A stretch of DNA of 64,000 bases, taken from NCBI GenBank assembly GCA_017461565.1, contig JAFTXQ010000010.1:62001-126000 (forward strand). The letters are read 5' to 3'. Below the pieces are notes generated by a model. It had not been told where the DNA came from, did not search any database, and saw only the letters and a list, made by a program, of their open reading frames with translations. Positions 30,954 through 44,860 of the stretch are shown piece by piece; position 1 is the stretch's first letter; the number at the start of each line of letters is the position of its first letter. A program made the translations under genes and the position numbers. The stretch comes from Oscillospiraceae bacterium. Lineage in GTDB: Bacteria > Bacillota > Clostridia > Oscillospirales > Ruminococcaceae.

Positions 30954-31919
30954 TCAAGCCGCCTGCACATCAGCGTCGACACGAACAGGCACAGGAACAT
31001 ATCCTGCCCTTTCAAGCAGCGTCAGGATATCATCCTCGATATAGAAATGTGCCGCTCCCACCAGCATGAATACATCCTCTCCACCTTGCAGGAATTCAAC
31101 AGCGGCCTCAGCCATCTTTTCCTGCCGCCCAAGATACATCATGTCCAGAAACTTCAGATGGTCGGAATAAACATCAGACGGGATATCCTCATAAACGGAA
31201 TAATCAAGTCCACCAAGCCGCTCCTCATCAAAGCAGCTCCACATATCGTACAGCTGCTTGGTTTCTGATACAGCCGTATCGTAATTCTCATCGCCGACAC
31301 ACTCGGTAACGGAAAGCACCTGTACAGCCATCGGTATCTCAGCCATCATCTGATACTGCTGTGCGACGCTCTCGATCTCACAGATCGTTTTTCCATCCTC
31401 GTGCGCCATCGACAAAAAATATTCCTCGGTACCGTATTCAGATGACAATCCGCATTCCTGTGCAGCCTCAACCGAAAGGACTGACGACCAGTAATACGGG
31501 ATATATCTGTCCAAAGCCTTTGAATATAGCCCCTTTGCAGACATAAAATCCACCGTTTCATCATAGCTGTCGCCAAAGCACGCCTGTGCTGTGACGCCTT
31601 CAGGAAGAAGCAGGTACTGCGCTGCTTCATTGATGATGTCTGTATTTTCGTTCAAAGCTGCCGTATCTATCTCCGCAGCAACTGTATCGCACTGCTCATA
31701 GGCTCTCAGAATGTAGTCGGGATACACGACACCCTCCTGCCCTACATGCATAGAGCCAAGAAGAAACAGTGTAGCGCCGCTCTCCTTATCCGTGACAGTC
31801 CAGAACGGCGGAGTGATCTCAACTGTCTCAGCCGCAGAAGACCCGCCGCCCGTACAGCCTGTCAGTATACATACACAAAGCAATACAGAAGAAAATCTTT
31901 TTATAATACCTGTCAGCAT
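30954..31919 (-). CDS. TraB/GumN family lipoprotein
   Basis: A 321-residue lipoprotein (lipobox ILTGC near residue 22) of the TraB/GumN fold, related to Tiki proteases. The family hallmarks are LFLLGSMHVG at the start of the domain, AAEID, and the closing MLVGAAHFYIEDDILTLLERAGY. Tiki relatives are metalloproteases using the two GxxH-type motifs; the bacterial function is not settled. It lies 12 bases after the histidine phosphatase gene. Confidence 0.88.
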   Translation of the reverse strand: MLTGIIKRFSSVLLCVCILTGCTGGGSSAAETVEITPPFWTVTDKESGATLFLLGSMHVGQEGVVYPDYILRAYEQCDTVAAEIDTAALNENTDIINEAAQYLLLPEGVTAQACFGDSYDETVDFMSAKGLYSKALDRYIPYYWSSVLSVEAAQECGLSSEYGTEEYFLSMAHEDGKTICEIESVAQQYQMMAEIPMAVQVLSVTECVGDENYDTAVSETKQLYDMWSCFDEERLGGLDYSVYEDIPSDVYSDHLKFLDMMYLGRQEKMAEAAVEFLQGGEDVFMLVGAAHFYIEDDILTLLERAGYVPVPVRVDADVQAA

Positions 31920-33516: not shown

Positions 33517-34950
33517 TTATTTGCTTTCAGGCGCTTCATTGGGATTGTTTGAACGTTTGTTCAGGAACAGCTTTACCGCTTCTATCGCAGAGCGGAAGTT
33601 TATCGCAACAATGACCACGAATATCACACAGTTGAGTACATTCTGTACAAGCCCATATTCAAGGAACATAACAGAAGCTCCCATCGCAACAAACAGAACG
33701 AAATTCACAAGCACCTTGCGGTAGTTTATCTTCATGTAAAGGTACTTTTTCGTATCGATAACACGATAGATGAAAACCACCATATAGCTTATCATAGTGG
33801 CTATTGCAGCGCCGATAACACCGATGGTGTGCAACAGGATAAGATTAAGCACAACATTAGTCGCAGCACCGATAAAAGAGGACACAAAGCTATGGCTTGT
33901 CTTGTTGCTTGCCTCGTATATAGTGCTCATGAAGTTTGATCCGCACTGGAACAGCACCGCACCAAGCAGACAAGGAACATAAAAATATGCGAACTCAAAG
34001 CCCTCGCTGCCGAAGAACGGCATTATTATAGGTCTGAGTATAAGCATTATACCCGCCACTGCCACAAACATTATGGTCTGCATCATATTGAACACATTGG
34101 AATAAAAGTTAGAGATAGTACGGGAATTTCTTTCGGTTATCGCTGACATGTGCCACGCCTGAAGAAATATACCCACAACTATCGCAGCAAGGTTCGGGAA
34201 TTTATAAGCAAACGAATACACACCGTTTTCGCCGCTGCCGAATATAGCAGTCACCATAAAGGTATCTGATACATTTACAATCCACCACATAACTGTGGTG
34301 GGCATAAGCGGTATGCTGTATCTCAGCATGGAGTTACGCAGCGTCTTGTCGTTTCCGAGAGGACGATACTGCTTATAAAGCTTTGCATTAGCGCTTACAA
34401 AGATGATCGAGACCAGATCGCCCAGCGATACCGACAGCACATAGCCCAGAACGCCCATATTAAACACACCGAGGAACAGCAGATTGAACAGTATCATCGA
34501 CACGGTGGTTATAATACCGTCTATCGCAAACAGCTTGACATGGCCTCGGGCACGCACATATATGCTGCATATTCCCTTTATGCTGCCCGTGCAGACATAC
34601 ATATACATCAGCCACTCGTATCCCTTCAGCATCTCTATCATGCCCACCAGAGGAACGAATGCGGCGAATATCACCAGACCTATAACAGCAACATTTATGC
34701 CGATGGAAAACACGTGCTTTCCGCTGTTTCCCTTATCCAGGCCATAGCGAAGCACGCCCTCACTGATAGAGAGCGTTACCACTGATATAAGCAATGCGGA
34801 CGCATTGATGATGTTGTTGACATCACCAAAGCCATCTGTGCCAAGCATGCTTGTGTAGAATTTCAGCATCACATACACAAGCAGCTTTGAGCCAAACTGA
34901 CCCAGAGCCAATACTATCGTATTGCTCGCCAGCTTCTGGTATTTGTTCAT
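33517..34950 (-). CDS. Polysaccharide flippase (MOP/Wzx-like)
   Basis: A 477-residue integral membrane protein with about 14 hydrophobic segments, beginning with the typical N-terminal pattern ASNTIVLALGQFGSKLLVYVM and an early TDGFGDVN loop, as in lipid-linked oligosaccharide exporters (RfbX/Wzx, MurJ-related MOP superfamily). It probably flips a polysaccharide or peptidoglycan precursor; the donor glycan is unknown. No glycosyltransferase lies nearby. It follows tadA by 18 bases, the last gene of the rlmB operon. Confidence 0.9.
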   Translation of the reverse strand: MNKYQKLASNTIVLALGQFGSKLLVYVMLKFYTSMLGTDGFGDVNNIINASALLISVVTLSISEGVLRYGLDKGNSGKHVFSIGINVAVIGLVIFAAFVPLVGMIEMLKGYEWLMYMYVCTGSIKGICSIYVRARGHVKLFAIDGIITTVSMILFNLLFLGVFNMGVLGYVLSVSLGDLVSIIFVSANAKLYKQYRPLGNDKTLRNSMLRYSIPLMPTTVMWWIVNVSDTFMVTAIFGSGENGVYSFAYKFPNLAAIVVGIFLQAWHMSAITERNSRTISNFYSNVFNMMQTIMFVAVAGIMLILRPIIMPFFGSEGFEFAYFYVPCLLGAVLFQCGSNFMSTIYEASNKTSHSFVSSFIGAATNVVLNLILLHTIGVIGAAIATMISYMVVFIYRVIDTKKYLYMKINYRKVLVNFVLFVAMGASVMFLEYGLVQNVLNCVIFVVIVAINFRSAIEAVKLFLNKRSNNPNEAPESK

Positions 34951-34968: not shown

Positions 34969-35430
34969 TTATATTTTATTTTCTCTGAGTTCTCTGAAAA
35001 AGCGTGTAAGCACCTCGCCGCATCTGTCCTTCAGGACACGGCTGCGCACATAAGGTATATGCGTGAACTTCTCCTCAAAAAGGCATACTACCGAGGCACA
35101 GGCGCCGTTCTTGTCGTCAAAAGCTCCGTAGACCACACGCTTAAGGCGGCTGTTCATCACAGCACCGGCACACATCGGACACGGCTCCAACGTAACATAG
35201 AGCGTGCAATCCGTAAGTCTCCAGCTTCCCAGGCGCTTTGCAGCCTGTTCTATCGCAATTATCTCAGCGTGGGCGATGGGAGAATTCAGCTGCTCACGCA
35301 GATTATATCCCTCGCCTATCACCTCTCCATCGGGCGACACAACGATCGCACCGACGGGTATTTCGCCAAGAGCGTAAGCCTTTTCGGCAAGCTCCAGCGC
35401 TTTCAGCATATATTCCTCGTCCTGCGTCAC
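34969..35430 (-). CDS. tadA: tRNA adenosine(34) deaminase TadA
   Basis: TadA (153 residues) makes inosine at the wobble base of tRNA-Arg(ACG). Zinc ligands are the HAE motif (AHAEIIAI) and PCPMCAG, both intact. I chose GTG 35430 because it overlaps the upstream stop (GTGA) and gives the family's usual N-terminus (TQDEEYMLKALELAEKA); an alternative ATG lies at 35409. Shorter than the longest frame by 16 residues. It sits between the P-type ATPase-like gene and the flippase. Confidence 0.95.
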   Translation of the reverse strand: MTQDEEYMLKALELAEKAYALGEIPVGAIVVSPDGEVIGEGYNLREQLNSPIAHAEIIAIEQAAKRLGSWRLTDCTLYVTLEPCPMCAGAVMNSRLKRVVYGAFDDKNGACASVVCLFEEKFTHIPYVRSRVLKDRCGEVLTRFFRELRENKI

Positions 35431-38400
35431 GGCTTTATGCGCTTGAACGCCTGCGCTACCACAACCAGCACCATCCATGCAAGATTATACATACAAAGAT
35501 AGAAGCTGTTGAGCATATCAAAGAAATTGAATCCGTCGTTTCTGAAATAAGGGGATACGGAAGAACCCTCCTGCACTGTATCAGCGATGCTGTAATTTCC
35601 GAAGAATGCAAAAATGAACACCAGCAGGATACCAAGCGCAACACCGGCGATCTGCACAGCGCAGCCTATCTTTATCTTTTTATAAAGGTTCTTTGCTCCG
35701 TTGATAGCCGAAGCGAACGAGGAGAACGTACCGTCGCAGGAAACTGCGGCACTGCCCTTGGAAACATACTTTGTGCGCTCTTCAAACTCATCATGCGCCT
35801 CATAAGGAATAACACGGACGCTCTCTGCGCCGATATCAAAAAGCTCTGCGATAACGCCCTCGGTTATCATACCATCTACTGTCTTGATGATAAGGCTCAC
35901 TCCGTTGGCTGCAAGCTTTTCAACGTGCTGCTTCACCTGTGAATTCGCATTAAGCTCCACAAAGAACAGCATACACACCTCGCCGCCGACAGCAAGATAA
36001 ACCACCTCATCGTGATTCTTGTTTACAGCGGACTCTTTCTTCGCATCGGGAACTGCTACGCCGTGGGATTTCATGTGGTCACGGTTGCCAAGCAGCACTC
36101 GTCTGCTGCCTATCCAGCCCATAACGCCGAGATTGCTCTCGTAAACACAATTACTTACCTTTTTGAGCAGCGCAGATTTATAGTTGAGCATATTGAAGAA
36201 CGCATCGGCAAGAACGCTGTCTGCGCTTACTGCAAGGCTTGCGGCATAGATGATCGCATCGTCGATCTGGATGTGCTGCGTGCCCTTTGAGCCGTTCTTA
36301 TTGTAATCCCAGATATTATTAACCTTGACTGAATTAACGGGGAACAGGGATTTTGCCTCTACCAGCACAGCACTCGTGTCGCTGACGTCCTCAACGGCGC
36401 TGTAGCCAAGAACGGATGCGTTCTTTCCTGTCAGCACCCTGGAAGCGGTGAGCATAGGAAGCATTACCGTCAGCGTACCGCTGAAGGTCGCACCCAAAGC
36501 AAGCACAGCCGTTGCGGTGGTAGCTCCGAGGGCAACATTTTCCATAAGATAGGAGCTTACAGACATGAAATACGTCATAAGTCCGCCGATAAGAGCTGCT
36601 ACGATAATAGCAGGCGTCATGATACGGGATATTCTGTCGGAGATATCCTCGCAATAAGTTGATATAATGAAATCGCACAGAAGCTCGGTCTTTCTCATGG
36701 ACGCAACCACGGGTATACCTGTGCCTGTACCACGTGCCAGCTTATCGGCACCCTCATCGCTGAGGCACTCGATGAAATATTTTCCACGGTCTCCCGAGAT
36801 GAACGCAAAGTTGTTCTGCGCAGCCTTTACGGTACACAGCTTTGCAACCGTGTTGAAGCACAGCGAGCCAAGCGACACCATAAGATAAACGTGTGCGTTA
36901 TTTGTAACCAGCATGGACGGCTGTGCAAGATAAGCGATTATTGCGACTATCGCACCGACATGAGCGAATGCACAAAGCGTATCTCCGTCGGGCTTGAGCT
37001 TTACAAGGCGTGAAAATCCGTTAGTAACGACGCTGGAGCACGCAGCAAAGCTGAGTATTCCGATAGTGAGATTTGTATAAAGGAAGTTCTGTACATTGAA
37101 CTTGTTGCACAGATCGGAAAGAAGCGGAATACCCTCTATATTAAGACGGAAGATAAGACTTGCGCCGATAGTTGCAAGCAGAAGCAATACAAGTATCACA
37201 AGCCTGCCCATAAGACCCTTTGAAGCACGGTTAAGACGTTCTGTTATAACGGCCTCATCGTCAAGGTCGATCACCTCGGCCTCATCGTCGTAATCGTCAT
37301 CATCCTCTTCTTCATAGTCGGTCTCATCATCGATATCCTCAAGCATAAAGCTTGCTATCCTGCGCTTTTTACGTGCAGCAAGATCATCTGCTTCACGGAT
37401 AGCAGCGACAGGGTCGCTCTTATTGAGGATGCCTGTATCTATAAGCTGCTTTTCATAGTCTATATTCAAAGCGTGCGACGGCATCCTGCCCGGCTCCGAC
37501 AGGTCTGTCAGAGTGACTGTGCGCTCCGCTTCTATATTTTTTTCACGCTGCTCCTTGAGCTTCTTGTTGAGCGAAGCCACAAGCGCCTCGTTGCTGCGGC
37601 GCTGCTTTGCGGTAGCAAACTCTACAACATCTTCATCGTGCGAAGTGTCCACAGGTGTTATCAGCACCTGCTCGACCTTGCGCTCGCTGTCGCTCTTTCT
37701 GCGTGAAGTCACAGGGGAATATTCCTTGACGTGCTCCTCAGCTCCCGAAAGGCGCTTGAGATCGTTTCCTGCAACGGCAAGCGTATCGCCGGATACTGTT
37801 TCGGCGTTTCTGACCTCCACCTCTGCCTTTGCACGTGAATCCATCGGATTTATGGAGTCAAGCAGATCGTCATTGGACTCTGCGGACATATCAGCCTCAA
37901 GCAGTGCACGGTTTATCTCCTCGATACGCTGCTGCTTTCTTATCTGCTGTGTAGCGGTAGTGACAAGATCGCTCCTTGTATGAAAGATTATATCATCATC
38001 TTCGCCTGAAACAGCAGGCTTTACATAAGGCTGAACATACTCACTCTCAGGGATAACGACATCCTGCTCCTCGGTATCAGCGAACAGCTTTGAAGCCTCC
38101 TCGGGAGAGGATATCTCGGCAGTGAAGCCTGTATGATCCTCGACAGTATCTTCAGACTCAGGCACCTCAAATTCCTCAGTAACGGAAGCCAGATCCTCCT
38201 CGGCGCTCTTCGCTGCAAGCTCCAGCTTACGCAGACGCTCTTCCTCCGCTGCACGCTCCGCCTCTATGCGACGCTTTTCCTCTGCCTCGGCTGCAAGACG
38301 TGCTTCCTTTTCACGGCGGCGTGCCTCCGCTTCTGCCTTTGCACGCTCCTGCTCCTCACGGCGCCGCTGAGCCTCCGCCTGTTTGAGTGCCTTCTTTTCC

Positions 38401-38648
38401 TTTGCACGCTCGGCAGCACGTGCGATCTCCTCTGCACGCTTCTGTGCTTCAAGATGCTCTGCGTTCTCCTCTGCCTCAACATCGGCAGCTGTGCGGCGCT
38501 TTTTGCCCGAGCCCCGGATCGCCTCCTCAAGCTCATTTCCGCCGATTATCTCGGTCACGCTTGCGGAATACTCTGCCGCAGGCTTGTCACCCGTGTCACG
38601 CTTTCGGTCTATTTCTGCCAGAATATCGTCAATATTATAATCGGACAT
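35427..38648 (-). CDS. Degenerate P-type ATPase-like membrane protein with long coiled-coil N-terminus
   Basis: A 1073-residue protein. Residues ~40-160 are Lys/Glu/Arg/Ala coiled coil, then ~270 acidic, low-complexity residues. From ~470 it follows a heavy-metal P-type ATPase: two TM pairs, an A-like region, a third TM pair (GATFSGTLTVMLPML), P and N-like parts (RVLLGNRDHMKSHGVAVPD; AANGVSLIIKTVDG) and a final TM pair. Catalytic motifs are gone: the DKTGTLT position (764-770) reads EAKSLFP, TGD is KTVD and GDGxND is lost (SCDGTFSS). It should therefore not hydrolyse ATP by the phospho-Asp route. ATG 38648 has AGGAG at 8 bases. It is coupled to tadA. Confidence 0.75.
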   Translation of the reverse strand: MSDYNIDDILAEIDRKRDTGDKPAAEYSASVTEIIGGNELEEAIRGSGKKRRTAADVEAEENAEHLEAQKRAEEIARAAERAKEKKALKQAEAQRRREEQERAKAEAEARRREKEARLAAEAEEKRRIEAERAAEEERLRKLELAAKSAEEDLASVTEEFEVPESEDTVEDHTGFTAEISSPEEASKLFADTEEQDVVIPESEYVQPYVKPAVSGEDDDIIFHTRSDLVTTATQQIRKQQRIEEINRALLEADMSAESNDDLLDSINPMDSRAKAEVEVRNAETVSGDTLAVAGNDLKRLSGAEEHVKEYSPVTSRRKSDSERKVEQVLITPVDTSHDEDVVEFATAKQRRSNEALVASLNKKLKEQREKNIEAERTVTLTDLSEPGRMPSHALNIDYEKQLIDTGILNKSDPVAAIREADDLAARKKRRIASFMLEDIDDETDYEEEDDDDYDDEAEVIDLDDEAVITERLNRASKGLMGRLVILVLLLLATIGASLIFRLNIEGIPLLSDLCNKFNVQNFLYTNLTIGILSFAACSSVVTNGFSRLVKLKPDGDTLCAFAHVGAIVAIIAYLAQPSMLVTNNAHVYLMVSLGSLCFNTVAKLCTVKAAQNNFAFISGDRGKYFIECLSDEGADKLARGTGTGIPVVASMRKTELLCDFIISTYCEDISDRISRIMTPAIIVAALIGGLMTYFMSVSSYLMENVALGATTATAVLALGATFSGTLTVMLPMLTASRVLTGKNASVLGYSAVEDVSDTSAVLVEAKSLFPVNSVKVNNIWDYNKNGSKGTQHIQIDDAIIYAASLAVSADSVLADAFFNMLNYKSALLKKVSNCVYESNLGVMGWIGSRRVLLGNRDHMKSHGVAVPDAKKESAVNKNHDEVVYLAVGGEVCMLFFVELNANSQVKQHVEKLAANGVSLIIKTVDGMITEGVIAELFDIGAESVRVIPYEAHDEFEERTKYVSKGSAAVSCDGTFSSFASAINGAKNLYKKIKIGCAVQIAGVALGILLVFIFAFFGNYSIADTVQEGSSVSPYFRNDGFNFFDMLNSFYLCMYNLAWMVLVVVAQAFKRIKP

Positions 38649-38671: not shown

Positions 38672-39403
38672 TCAACGGTGCTTTACAACTTCATACATCA
38701 GTATTCCCGCCGAAACCGAAGCGTTCAGCGAGTTTATCTTTCCATTCATAGGAAGCGACAGTATCATGTCGCAGTTCTCACGGACCAGTCTGCCAAGTCC
38801 GAAGCCCTCCGAACCTATCACAAGCGCAACGCCGCCTGTGAGATCTGCCTTATCATAAGGTGTTCCGTCAGCCTCCATGCCGAACACCCAGATATTTTCC
38901 TTTTTCAGCTGCTTTATAGTATCAACAAGGTTTGCTACCCTTGCGACCTTCATCCACGCCGCCGCACCTGCCGAGGTCTTATAGACCGTAGCATTGAGCG
39001 TTGCGCTCCTGCGCTTGGGGATGATCACTCCATCAGCGCCCGCCGCCTCTGCGGTACGGATTATCGCACCGAGGTTATGGGGATCCTCTATCTCGTCAGC
39101 TATGATGATAAAAGGCGGTTTTCCCTTTTCCTTTGAGACAGCAAGTATCTCCTCAACGGTCGAATAGGACGCAGCGGCAAGATAAGCTGCCGTGCCGCCA
39201 TGCTTCTGTGTGCCTGTCATAGCTGTGAGCTTTTCATCACTCACCTCTTTTATCACTATGCCTTTCTGCTTAGCCAGAGGAATGATCTTTCCGAGAGATA
39301 TCCCTTTCTGCACGTACAGGATATCAAGCTCTGCACCTGAGGTAAGTGACTCTATAACGGAATTTTTACCGTATATTATCTTAACTTCTGTTTCCTTTTC
39401 CAT
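38672..39403 (-). CDS. rlmB: 23S rRNA (guanosine2251-2'-O)-methyltransferase RlmB (SpoU family)
   Basis: A 243-residue SPOUT methyltransferase with an N-terminal substrate-binding part (IYGKNSVIESL) and the three SpoU motifs: DPHNLGAIIRTAEAAG, VIGSEGFGLGRLV and LPMNGKINSLNASVSAGI. Such enzymes 2'-O-methylate rRNA; RlmB acts at G2251 and the length and opening fit RlmB more than TrmH. It is the first gene of the operon, behind a promoter at 39458-39486. Confidence 0.92.
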   Translation of the reverse strand: MEKETEVKIIYGKNSVIESLTSGAELDILYVQKGISLGKIIPLAKQKGIVIKEVSDEKLTAMTGTQKHGGTAAYLAAASYSTVEEILAVSKEKGKPPFIIIADEIEDPHNLGAIIRTAEAAGADGVIIPKRRSATLNATVYKTSAGAAAWMKVARVANLVDTIKQLKKENIWVFGMEADGTPYDKADLTGGVALVIGSEGFGLGRLVRENCDMILSLPMNGKINSLNASVSAGILMYEVVKHR

Positions 39404-42059: not shown

Positions 42060-42109
42060 ATTATTCAACAGACATCCATTTTAAATCAATGTTGAACGGA
42101 GAGCATATC

Positions 42110-44860
42110 ATGGAAAAACGTACACTTGACTGGAACAAATATTGCGAGACCTCTGCCCGCGCGGTGTCCGAGGGCATAGTAATGCTCAGGAACGAAGATG
42201 TACTCCCTCTTGCAAAGGACAAGGAGATCGCCGTTTTCGGACGCATACAGCTCCACTACTACAAGAGCGGCACAGGCTCTGGCGGCATGGTGAACGTATC
42301 CCACGTCATCGGCATAACCGAGGGACTCGAAAACGCAGGAATAAAGATAAACAAGGAGCTTTACAACATATACGACGAGTGGGACTCCTGCCATCCGTTC
42401 AATTACGGCGAGGGCTGGGGCACAGAACCGTGGTGTCAGGAGGAGATGCCGCTCACCGATGAGATAGTAAGCAACGCCGCCTCCGCATCAGACACTGCGA
42501 TCGTTATAATAGGCAGAACTGCGGGCGAGGAGATGGACAACAAGCAGAAGCAGGGGGCTTTCCTGCTGACCGACCTTGAAGAGGATATGCTACGCAAGGT
42601 CCGTGCCCACTTCAAGAAGATGGTGGTGCTTCTCAATGTCCCTGCCCTGTTCGATATGGGCTTTATGGACAGATACTCCCCCGAGGGCGTGCTTTATGTA
42701 TGGCAGGGCGGTATGGTAGGTGGCACTGGCACAGCTATGGTGCTCACAGGCGAAGTCAGCCCCAGCGGAAAGCTTCCCGACACTATCGCTTACAATATCG
42801 AAGACTACCCGTCACACCCATATTTCGGCGAGGACAAGCGTGATTTTTACACCGAGGACATCTATGTAGGCTATCGCTATTTCGAGACCTTTGCAAAGGA
42901 AAAGGTACGTTATCCTTTCGGCTTCGGAATGAGCTACACCACATTCAGGATAAAGGCTCACACCTATACCGCACATACGGGCGAAGTCTCCAATATAGTG
43001 GATCTTGGAATTACTGTGAAGAACACAGGCAGCTTTGCAGGAAAGGAAGTCGTACAGGTATATCTTGAAGCGCCTCAGGGAAAGCTCGGCAAGCCTGCGA
43101 GAGTCCTCTGCGGCTACGAGAAAACAAAGGAGCTCGCTCCGAACGAGGAACAGGAGCTTAAGATAACCGTTGATCTGCGGGATTTCGCAAGCTACGACGA
43201 CAGTGGTGTGACAGGTCACCGCTTCTGCCGTATTTTAGAAGCAGGCGAATACAATTTCTACGTAGGCAGCGATGTCCGCAGCGCTAAAAGTATATGGCGC
43301 AAAACGCTCTCCGAAGATGTCGTTGTGGAGCAGCTTGCTCAGGCACTCGCTCCCGTAATCCCCTTCAAGCGTATGAAGAACGATAACGGCTCGCTCATTT
43401 TCGAGGATACTCCGCTTTCCATGCAGGAGGAGTTCGACCGCCGTGCCACAGATATTCCTGAGGAAATACCGCAGACAGGCGACCGTGGCATAAAGCTTGC
43501 GGATGTATACAACGGCAAAAACACAATAACAGAATTTATTGCGCAGCTTTCTGACGAGGATCTTTCCTGCATCATCCGTGGCGAGGGCATGGGAAGCCCT
43601 AAGGTGACCCCAGGCACTGCCTCGGCTTTCGGAGGTGTTTCCGAGGGGCTTCAGCACTACGGTATCCCCTGCGGCTGCTGCTCCGACGGTCCCTCGGGTA
43701 TGAGAATGGACTGCGGCACAAAAGCTTTCAGCCTGCCGGGAGGAACGCTCCTTGCCGCAACATTCAACCGTCCTCTTCTGACAGAGCTTTTCACACTGAT
43801 GGGACTTGAGATGACCGCAAACAACGTGGATTGCCTGCTTGGCCCCGGTATGAACATCCACCGCCATCCCTTGAACGGAAGAAACTTTGAATATTTCTCC
43901 GAGGACCCCTACCTCACAGGTACCATCGCCTGCGCACAGCTTGACGGTCTGCACTCCGTGGGAGTAACAGGCACCATCAAGCATTTCTGCGGTAATAACC
44001 GTGAAACTCATCGCCATTGGCTGGATTCAGTTATCTCCGAAAGAGCACTGCGCGAGATCTATCTGCGTGGCTTTGAGATAGCAATAAAGCAGGGCAAGGC
44101 GCCTACTGTAATGACAACTTACGGCTCGGTAAACGGCGTATGGACGGCAGGCAGCTATGATCTCAACACCACTATTCTGAGAAAGCAGTGGGGCTTCAAG
44201 GGCTTCACTATGACCGACTGGTGGGCAAACATCAACCGCCGTGGTCAGCAGCCCGACAAGCGTGACTTCGCTATCATGGCGATGGCACAGAACGACGTTT
44301 ATATGGTGTGCGCTGACGGCGGAAACCACGACGACAACACCCTTGAAAGTCTTGAAAAGGGCGAGCTCAAACGAAGCGAGCTTCAGAGAAACGCCGCAAA
44401 TATCCTCGGCTTCCTGCTCACAACAAATGCGCTCAGGCGTGAGATGGGACTGGATACAGCCGCAGAGATAATCAACCGTCCTGCCGAATCAAACGGCGAG
44501 GACGGAGACGTACCCTACTATTATGTAGATGACGCCTTCGATCTCGACCTCAACGGCATGACTACCAAAAAGGGTGAAAATTACAGCTTTGCACTGGATT
44601 TCAAGCGTGAGGGCAGATACAAGGTAACCATCACAGCCTCCTCTGAGCTTTCCGAGCTTGCACAGACAGCAGTAACGCTGTTCAGCGTGGGCAGTGCCTG
44701 CGGAAGCTACATCTGGAACGGCACAGGCGGAAAGCCTGTTTCCATCGCAAAGGAGATAAATGTATTCTCACGATTCACAAGCGTTCGCCTGCACTTTGCC
44801 GCTAACGGTCTTAAGCTGCACAGTATCGCTTATGAGAGGATAGGCGAGCCGAAAAGATAA
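42110..44860 (+). CDS. Glycoside hydrolase family 3 beta-glucosidase, circularly permuted type
   Basis: A 916-residue GH3 enzyme with the domains in reversed order: the alpha/beta C-domain comes first (SEGIVMLRNEDVLPL near residue 25), then a fibronectin-like domain (~300-390, VKNTGSFAGKEVVQVYLEAP), then the catalytic TIM-barrel (~470-790) with GPGMNIHRHPLNGRNFEY, IKHFCGNNRE and the nucleophile D703 in FTMTDWW. This order is known from Ruminococcus albus beta-glucosidase. It cleaves cello-oligosaccharides, probably intracellularly as no signal peptide is seen. ATG 42110 has CGGAGA upstream. Confidence 0.93.
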   Translation: MEKRTLDWNKYCETSARAVSEGIVMLRNEDVLPLAKDKEIAVFGRIQLHYYKSGTGSGGMVNVSHVIGITEGLENAGIKINKELYNIYDEWDSCHPFNYGEGWGTEPWCQEEMPLTDEIVSNAASASDTAIVIIGRTAGEEMDNKQKQGAFLLTDLEEDMLRKVRAHFKKMVVLLNVPALFDMGFMDRYSPEGVLYVWQGGMVGGTGTAMVLTGEVSPSGKLPDTIAYNIEDYPSHPYFGEDKRDFYTEDIYVGYRYFETFAKEKVRYPFGFGMSYTTFRIKAHTYTAHTGEVSNIVDLGITVKNTGSFAGKEVVQVYLEAPQGKLGKPARVLCGYEKTKELAPNEEQELKITVDLRDFASYDDSGVTGHRFCRILEAGEYNFYVGSDVRSAKSIWRKTLSEDVVVEQLAQALAPVIPFKRMKNDNGSLIFEDTPLSMQEEFDRRATDIPEEIPQTGDRGIKLADVYNGKNTITEFIAQLSDEDLSCIIRGEGMGSPKVTPGTASAFGGVSEGLQHYGIPCGCCSDGPSGMRMDCGTKAFSLPGGTLLAATFNRPLLTELFTLMGLEMTANNVDCLLGPGMNIHRHPLNGRNFEYFSEDPYLTGTIACAQLDGLHSVGVTGTIKHFCGNNRETHRHWLDSVISERALREIYLRGFEIAIKQGKAPTVMTTYGSVNGVWTAGSYDLNTTILRKQWGFKGFTMTDWWANINRRGQQPDKRDFAIMAMAQNDVYMVCADGGNHDDNTLESLEKGELKRSELQRNAANILGFLLTTNALRREMGLDTAAEIINRPAESNGEDGDVPYYYVDDAFDLDLNGMTTKKGENYSFALDFKREGRYKVTITASSELSELAQTAVTLFSVGSACGSYIWNGTGGKPVSIAKEINVFSRFTSVRLHFAANGLKLHSIAYERIGEPKR

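Follow-up and report, generated by a model that had tools for sequence, protein, structure and literature searches.

A catalytically degenerate P1B-type ATPase beside rlmB across the order Oscillospirales: a putative membrane-anchored scaffold or receptor

P-type ATPases are textbook pumps whose cycle depends on the phosphorylated Asp, TGES and GDGxND; an enzyme of this kind that lacks them cannot pump. In the mycobacterial P-type ATPases of the FUPA24 (CtpH-CtpI) type, an inactive type I unit makes up the N-terminal half, a P-type-like part retained in the chain without working motifs. One report assigns the functional motifs of these proteins to the C-terminal region (PMC3573892). Here we describe a gene that resembles this case but whose product, unlike the FUPA24 proteins, has no catalytic part that we could find. 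It lies in a 64,000-nucleotide stretch of DNA from an Oscillospiraceae bacterium (assembly GCA_017461565.1, contig JAFTXQ010000010.1, positions 62,001 to 126,000; the whole stretch is called the window below) and encodes a pseudo-P1B-ATPase, hereafter PPA. The gene shares with rae1 (yacP) of other Clostridia the slot beside rlmB, the rlmB-rae1 pair being found also in Bacillus. Rae1 itself is another kind of protein than PPA, namely a ribosome-associated A-site endoribonuclease (PMC8266666). We estimate at roughly 60% the probability that PPA represents a pseudo-P1B-ATPase family of the whole order and works as a membrane-anchored scaffold or receptor. As judged on titles and abstract openings, no description of such a protein was found in the literature.

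One of the closest described systems is CopA, with which PPA shares, by alignment, the order of helices and of the A, P and N domains. As the earlier note on this DNA had proposed, the eight-helix topology of a P1B ATPase is present by alignment and hydropathy. Stretches scoring above 1.5 in a 19-residue window lie at residues 482-500, 523-545, 557-582, 680-698, 712-733, 998-1016 and 1049-1067; an eighth, at 881-899, falls inside the P/N remnant and is taken as a buried strand rather than a membrane helix, and the fourth helix, near 590-608, is weak by hydropathy and is placed by alignment. Searched alone, the PPA of the window reaches E 2.3e-11 with NCBIfam CopA (45 bits vs a cut-off of 1316) and E 5.8e-6 with the Legionella CopA structure (LpCopA, PDB 3rfu), and matches no Pfam family at its cut-off. 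When an alignment of 25 C-terminal PPA parts was compared by hhalign with one of 11 P-type pumps of the same order, the match spanned 550 columns, from the first helices through the last, with 99.9% probability (E 5.6e-37). LpCopA was also the best match of the PPA family profile among solved structures (E 1.2e-33 vs 1.1e-12 for a Zn pump), which makes descent from a Cu+-type pump likelier. These comparisons put the homology of PPA to P1B ATPases far above chance level, and its ancestor would have been such a pump, most probably one for Cu+. Among 25 members, 18 matched the NCBIfam CopA model at 0.01 and one matched any Pfam model at that level, the latter being unrelated; this weak CopA similarity could mislead automatic annotation into calling a copper exporter. 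In a tree, 75 PPA members stood together on one side of a branch with 100/100 support and a stem 1.41 long, the internal order being unsure because of long branches within the PPA part.

In contrast to CopA, PPA lacks a Pfam-recognised heavy-metal-binding domain, CPC, TGES, DKTGT, [ST]EHP and GDGxND, and has a shortened P domain and a long tail instead. We followed these losses through a joint alignment of 75 PPA members with 11 canonical pumps of the same order. The members comprise 14 chosen loci of the window's own genus and 61 of 63 comparison loci, which cover the order outside that genus in two sets (23 + 40) and 24 families; L032 and L051, with interrupted frames, did not span the profile and were excluded before the count. 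The strings DKTGT and GDGxND occur in none of the 75 members and in all 11 pumps. The GDGxND columns are empty in every member, so this segment and its surroundings are missing rather than mutated, in agreement with the loss read earlier from the window, as are EAKSLFP in the phosphorylation loop and KTVD at residues 922-925. In the column of the catalytic Asp, 18 members have D, 17 have E and 10 have T. In the CPC columns, Cys is found in 3 and 2 members and Pro in 45, and a loose [CST]P[CHS] string occurs anywhere in the chain in 16; at TGES, E is empty in 73 and S in all 75, with a TGE[SAP] string anywhere in the chain in two (L052 and L167). No active P-type unit was seen elsewhere in the chain, as the last 640 residues of the 75 members contain neither DKTGT nor GDGxND, and among the frames listed both motifs were present only in the CopA control L054. 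A better alignment that would restore the motifs was ruled out by the profile alignment and by the joint alignment, and homologues of the same architecture bearing DKTGT or GDGxND, sought among the 75 members, did not appear, as expected of a pseudo-ATPase. Because the phosphorylated Asp, TGES and GDGxND are lost, known P-type chemistry would exclude pumping by PPA.

The loop that replaces DKTGTLT is itself patterned: its second place is D in 40 members and A in 25, its fourth is D or E in 55, and it closes with F in 64 and P in 63. Such a D-x-[DE] arrangement could mean that PPA is still an active enzyme of another chemistry, working in the manner of a HAD phosphatase. We regard this as very improbable, since the nucleophile column holds D in just 18 of 75 members and reads E-A-K-S in the window, the motif IV columns are empty throughout, and the Lys of motif III lacks conservation. 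The joint alignment also led us to reject D-x-D as a HAD nucleophile still intact: its D stands a column away from the catalytic Asp, and there is no motif IV.

The family is carried by 192 of 197 genomes of the window's order (profile, E 1e-50 or better). This level was set because normal pumps passing 1e-30 scored 3.5e-31 to 8.2e-40; at 1e-15 all 197 genomes match, but that threshold lets in normal pumps. With the whole protein as query, 59 of 61 relatives matched, the other two being 69% and 55% complete. No genome appears twice among the matches listed, so PPA looks single-copy. In G062, one of the five genomes below the family level, rlmB precedes the beginning of a PPA gene, with EFSVEDILAEF in it, that is cut by the contig end. 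Draws at 1e-40 gave no match in 231 of 243 genomes of the class and in 295 of 299 of the phylum, and the 12 and 4 matching genomes all belong to the order. The 26 best loci outside it (118 class genomes, 1e-25) carry DKTGT, a CPx-like motif, TGE[SPA], TGD and GDGxND, and with all five motifs are ordinary P1B-like pumps. By these searches, PPA appears confined to one order.

Despite the dead chemistry, the protein seems to be held under selection. Between the window and L090 (79% identical over the protein), the approximate ratio of nonsynonymous to synonymous substitution rates (dN/dS) is 0.108 for PPA overall, 0.033 for the P/N part (751-970), 0.109 for residues 467-750 and 0.15 for the tail, with 0.023 for rlmB. 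In the other comparisons, the P/N part vs 467-750 gave 0.082 vs 0.124 (L003), 0.109 vs 0.151 (L006) and 0.134 vs 0.144 (L004), the last helices tying at 0.134 in L004. The P/N remnant is thus lowest or tied lowest in all four, and on the comparison of membrane and P/N parts suggested earlier the dead domain appears at least as constrained as the rest of PPA. Together, the clade-wide catalytic loss, the constraint and the conserved context argue that PPA is a pseudoenzyme kept by selection. That PPA is instead a hitch-hiking relic or a recent pseudogene is hardly credible: the catalytic motifs are lost and a few assemblies show a broken PPA (L027, L029, L032 and L051), but frames are open over 24 families, dN/dS is far below 1 and nearly the whole order carries the gene. 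As a general explanation, a recent pseudogene, the alternative named at the outset, is contradicted by this spread and constraint. It would rather seem that the PPA clade dropped pump chemistry at or before the spread of the entire order and kept the shell under selection, a clean case of a pump turning into something else.

The membrane part might be what is used, the eight helices serving as a passive channel, a scramblase or a regulatory subunit of a normal P-type pump; the helix pattern is kept, and the window's own genome retains normal P-type pumps besides PPA. This is quite improbable in our judgement, as CPC is lost and, in the comparison with L090, constraint is strongest in the cytosolic part and not in the helices. 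Moreover, PPA is present in G037 and G041, whose best matches to a CopA query are 2.5e-69 and 1.7e-85, while 21 of 25 genomes reach 3.4e-109 or better; from these weak matches, a CopA partner looks, indirectly, unneeded.

The tail ahead of the membrane part is charged and divergent between members. The earlier description of a charged N-terminus of about 450 residues holds for the window, but its length is a genus trait, as tails in other families run from about none (L037) to 823 residues (L140). Related motifs recur at its tip. A strict pattern, [ILVMF][DENS][DENA][IL][LM]x[EDK], sought in the first 100 residues, occurs in 27 of 61 PPA starts vs 0.37 expected from shuffles, and in the remainder of the tail in one of 41 vs 0.41 expected. 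The rule used to assign starts favoured the candidate closest to the rlmB stop and gave extra weight to a ribosome site, which leaves some starts uncertain; two of the 63 loci were dropped, L045 having no rlmB anchor and L032 no start found. In the own genus a second, similar block, SVT[DEQ][IV]I, is present in the tail. The pattern has nine matches in the window's own genome, of which the one that opens a long frame is PPA itself; a stricter pattern gave six matches in five other genomes, three in PPA and none of the other three N-terminal in a frame. The DDILAE-like motif looks like a candidate docking motif. As a separate observation, a 531-aa frame of G048 (L171), DnaK-like by eye, has an acidic C-terminal tail with DEILREF, which resembles the N-terminal motif of PPA but may be chance.

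The constant neighbour of PPA is rlmB, found upstream on the same strand in 62 of the 63 comparison loci, from 24 families, overlapping or at most 147 bases away frame to frame except in L032, where the PPA frame is split. In L045, the one locus without it, obgE takes that place, and in L135 obgE stands directly before rlmB. Downstream, 18 of the 63 loci have an EF-G-like gene in the same orientation (in one, 898 bases away), and L047 has a GTPase with the Era domain pair (era); four EF-G-like genes scanned pass NCBIfam NF009381. A search for a shared downstream partner among 42 frames from 22 loci left 38 singletons and one group of four, EF-G-like. Because the cluster includes rlmB and, at some loci, obgE, era, an EF-G-like factor or tadA, a link to the ribosome or translation suggests itself, and, less firmly than the scaffold or receptor role, gene order hints that partners of PPA might belong to ribosome maturation or translation.

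Outside the order, 23 of 76 genomes of the class have a stand-alone rae1 (frame below 220 aa), and rlmB adjoins it in five of the seven such loci fetched from other Clostridia; none was found in 59 genomes of the order. There, the NYN_YacP domain is present in 18 of 59 genomes, always in frames of at least 861 aa. All eight NYN_YacP (Rae1-type) frames fetched from the order (L177-L184) match EF-G, with no separate gene. A replacement of rae1 by PPA beside rlmB is suggestive only, given that many other Clostridia are also without a stand-alone rae1. It would be possible, though we hold this more specific idea tentatively and at well below even odds, that PPA is a platform in the rae1 slot of other Clostridia, tying ribosome maturation or translation to the membrane with a partner recruited via the DDILAE motif.

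Taken together, a scaffold or receptor is the most economical reading of PPA because one chain combines a cytosolic remnant under constraint, a motif that recurs at the tail tip and an eight-helix anchor; the role of scaffold, receptor or regulator suggested in the earlier note likewise fits the constraint on a dead domain and the docking-like motif. The eight helices would anchor PPA in the membrane, the P/N remnant and the motif at the flexible tail tip would dock soluble partners there, and PPA would be expressed together with ribosome-maturation genes. Several points weigh against this. The gene order may reflect shared expression only. AlphaFold2, run with three close sequences, gave predicted local distance difference test scores of 34 and 42 and no usable model. 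The strict motif is missing from 34 of the 61 starts, some of which carry variants by eye (FSVDDIINEYS, FSLESILAEFS). The advantage of the P/N part shrinks with distance (in L004, 0.134 vs 0.134-0.145 in the other parts), the dN/dS values are rough with synonymous sites almost saturated, and three of the four comparisons (L090, L003 and L006) gave no score for the last helix pair. Four genomes of the order, G092, G150, G115 and G127, have no family member; they are 95-99% complete and show neither PPA nor rlmB at 1e-20. One genus is represented by G092 and G150 only, and a joint loss of the pair is possible there, whereas assembly gaps are likelier for G115 and G127, whose genera have other PPA carriers.

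Furthermore, the D of TGD and one Gly of the nucleotide-binding loop (the second of GxG, N domain) are each kept in 74 of 75 members, so that leftover nucleotide binding is possible. These residues, along with the low dN/dS of the remnant, would suit a ligand sensor, in which PPA binds a nucleotide or ion without hydrolysis and its conformation signals to a tail-bound partner. The [ST]EHP nucleotide motif, however, is absent from all 75 members (2 of the 11 canonical pumps lack the pattern too), and the residues common to the members do not include the LPxxK Lys; we consider a sensor unlikely. The family offers practical handles: PPA is near-universal in its order, lies outside Pfam, has a fixed genomic partner and carries a short motif usable as bait.

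Table 1. Features of the PPA locus, with positions in the window and residues of PPA.
Feature	Position	Strand	Basis
PPA, pseudo-P1B-ATPase gene, 1073 aa	35427..38648	-	Open reading frame, homology, motif checks
Charged N-terminal tail, residues 1-466 (27% D+E, 15% K+R)	37251..38648	-	Composition
N-terminal motif YNIDDILAEI, residues 4-13	38610..38639	-	Pattern; related motifs open many members in other families
Acidic stretch directly ahead of membrane part, residues 437-466	37251..37340	-	Sequence
First four membrane helices (P1B MA, MB, M1, M2), residues 482-608	36825..37205	-	Alignment and hydropathy
A-domain remnant, shortened, without TGES, residues 609-670	36639..36824	-	Profile and joint alignment
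M3-M4 helix pair, residues 680-733	36450..36611	-	Alignment and hydropathy
CPC metal-site position, A720-T721-F722	36483..36491	-	Profile alignment
P/N-domain remnant, residues 740-985; lowest or tied lowest dN/dS of PPA parts	35694..36431	-	Alignment, dN/dS
DKTGTLT position, EAKSLFP (764-770); family consensus x[DA]x[DE][LIV]FP	36339..36359	-	Joint alignment
TGD position, T923-V924-D925; D kept in 74/75 members	35874..35882	-	Joint alignment
Junction lacking GDGxND half of P domain, residues about 949-972	35733..35804	-	Alignments
Last helix pair (M5-M6), residues 991-1069	35442..35678	-	Hydropathy
rlmB, 23S rRNA Gm2251 methyltransferase, upstream; order-wide partner	38672..39403	-	NCBIfam, locus comparison
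tadA, GTG start overlapping PPA stop; behind PPA in own genus only	34969..35430	-	NCBIfam, locus comparison
Polysaccharide-type flippase; behind PPA in own genus only	33517..34950	-	Pfam, locus comparison

The reading frame stands as first proposed, with its ATG at 38648, 23 bases past the rlmB stop and preceded 8 bases ahead by AGGAG, and its TGA stop at 35427-35429, which overlaps the GTG start of tadA as GTGA. Of the operon described earlier, rlmB is an order-wide partner, but tadA and the flippase are not: they follow PPA in 33 of the 35 loci from the own genus, a contig end cutting off the remaining two, and in none of the 63 loci of other genera (1e-8), some of which reach just 0.3-1.5 kb downstream. 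The cell-envelope role once suggested from the flippase is not borne out by this distribution. Elsewhere in the window, positions 30954-31919 (- strand) encode a protein of the TraB/PrgY/GumN family that matches no NCBIfam model up to E 1, and positions 42089-44860 (+ strand) a GH3 protein of reversed order, with the GH3 C-terminal domain and an Fn3-like domain at residues 30-395 and the GH3 N-terminal domain at 524-773 (Pfam).

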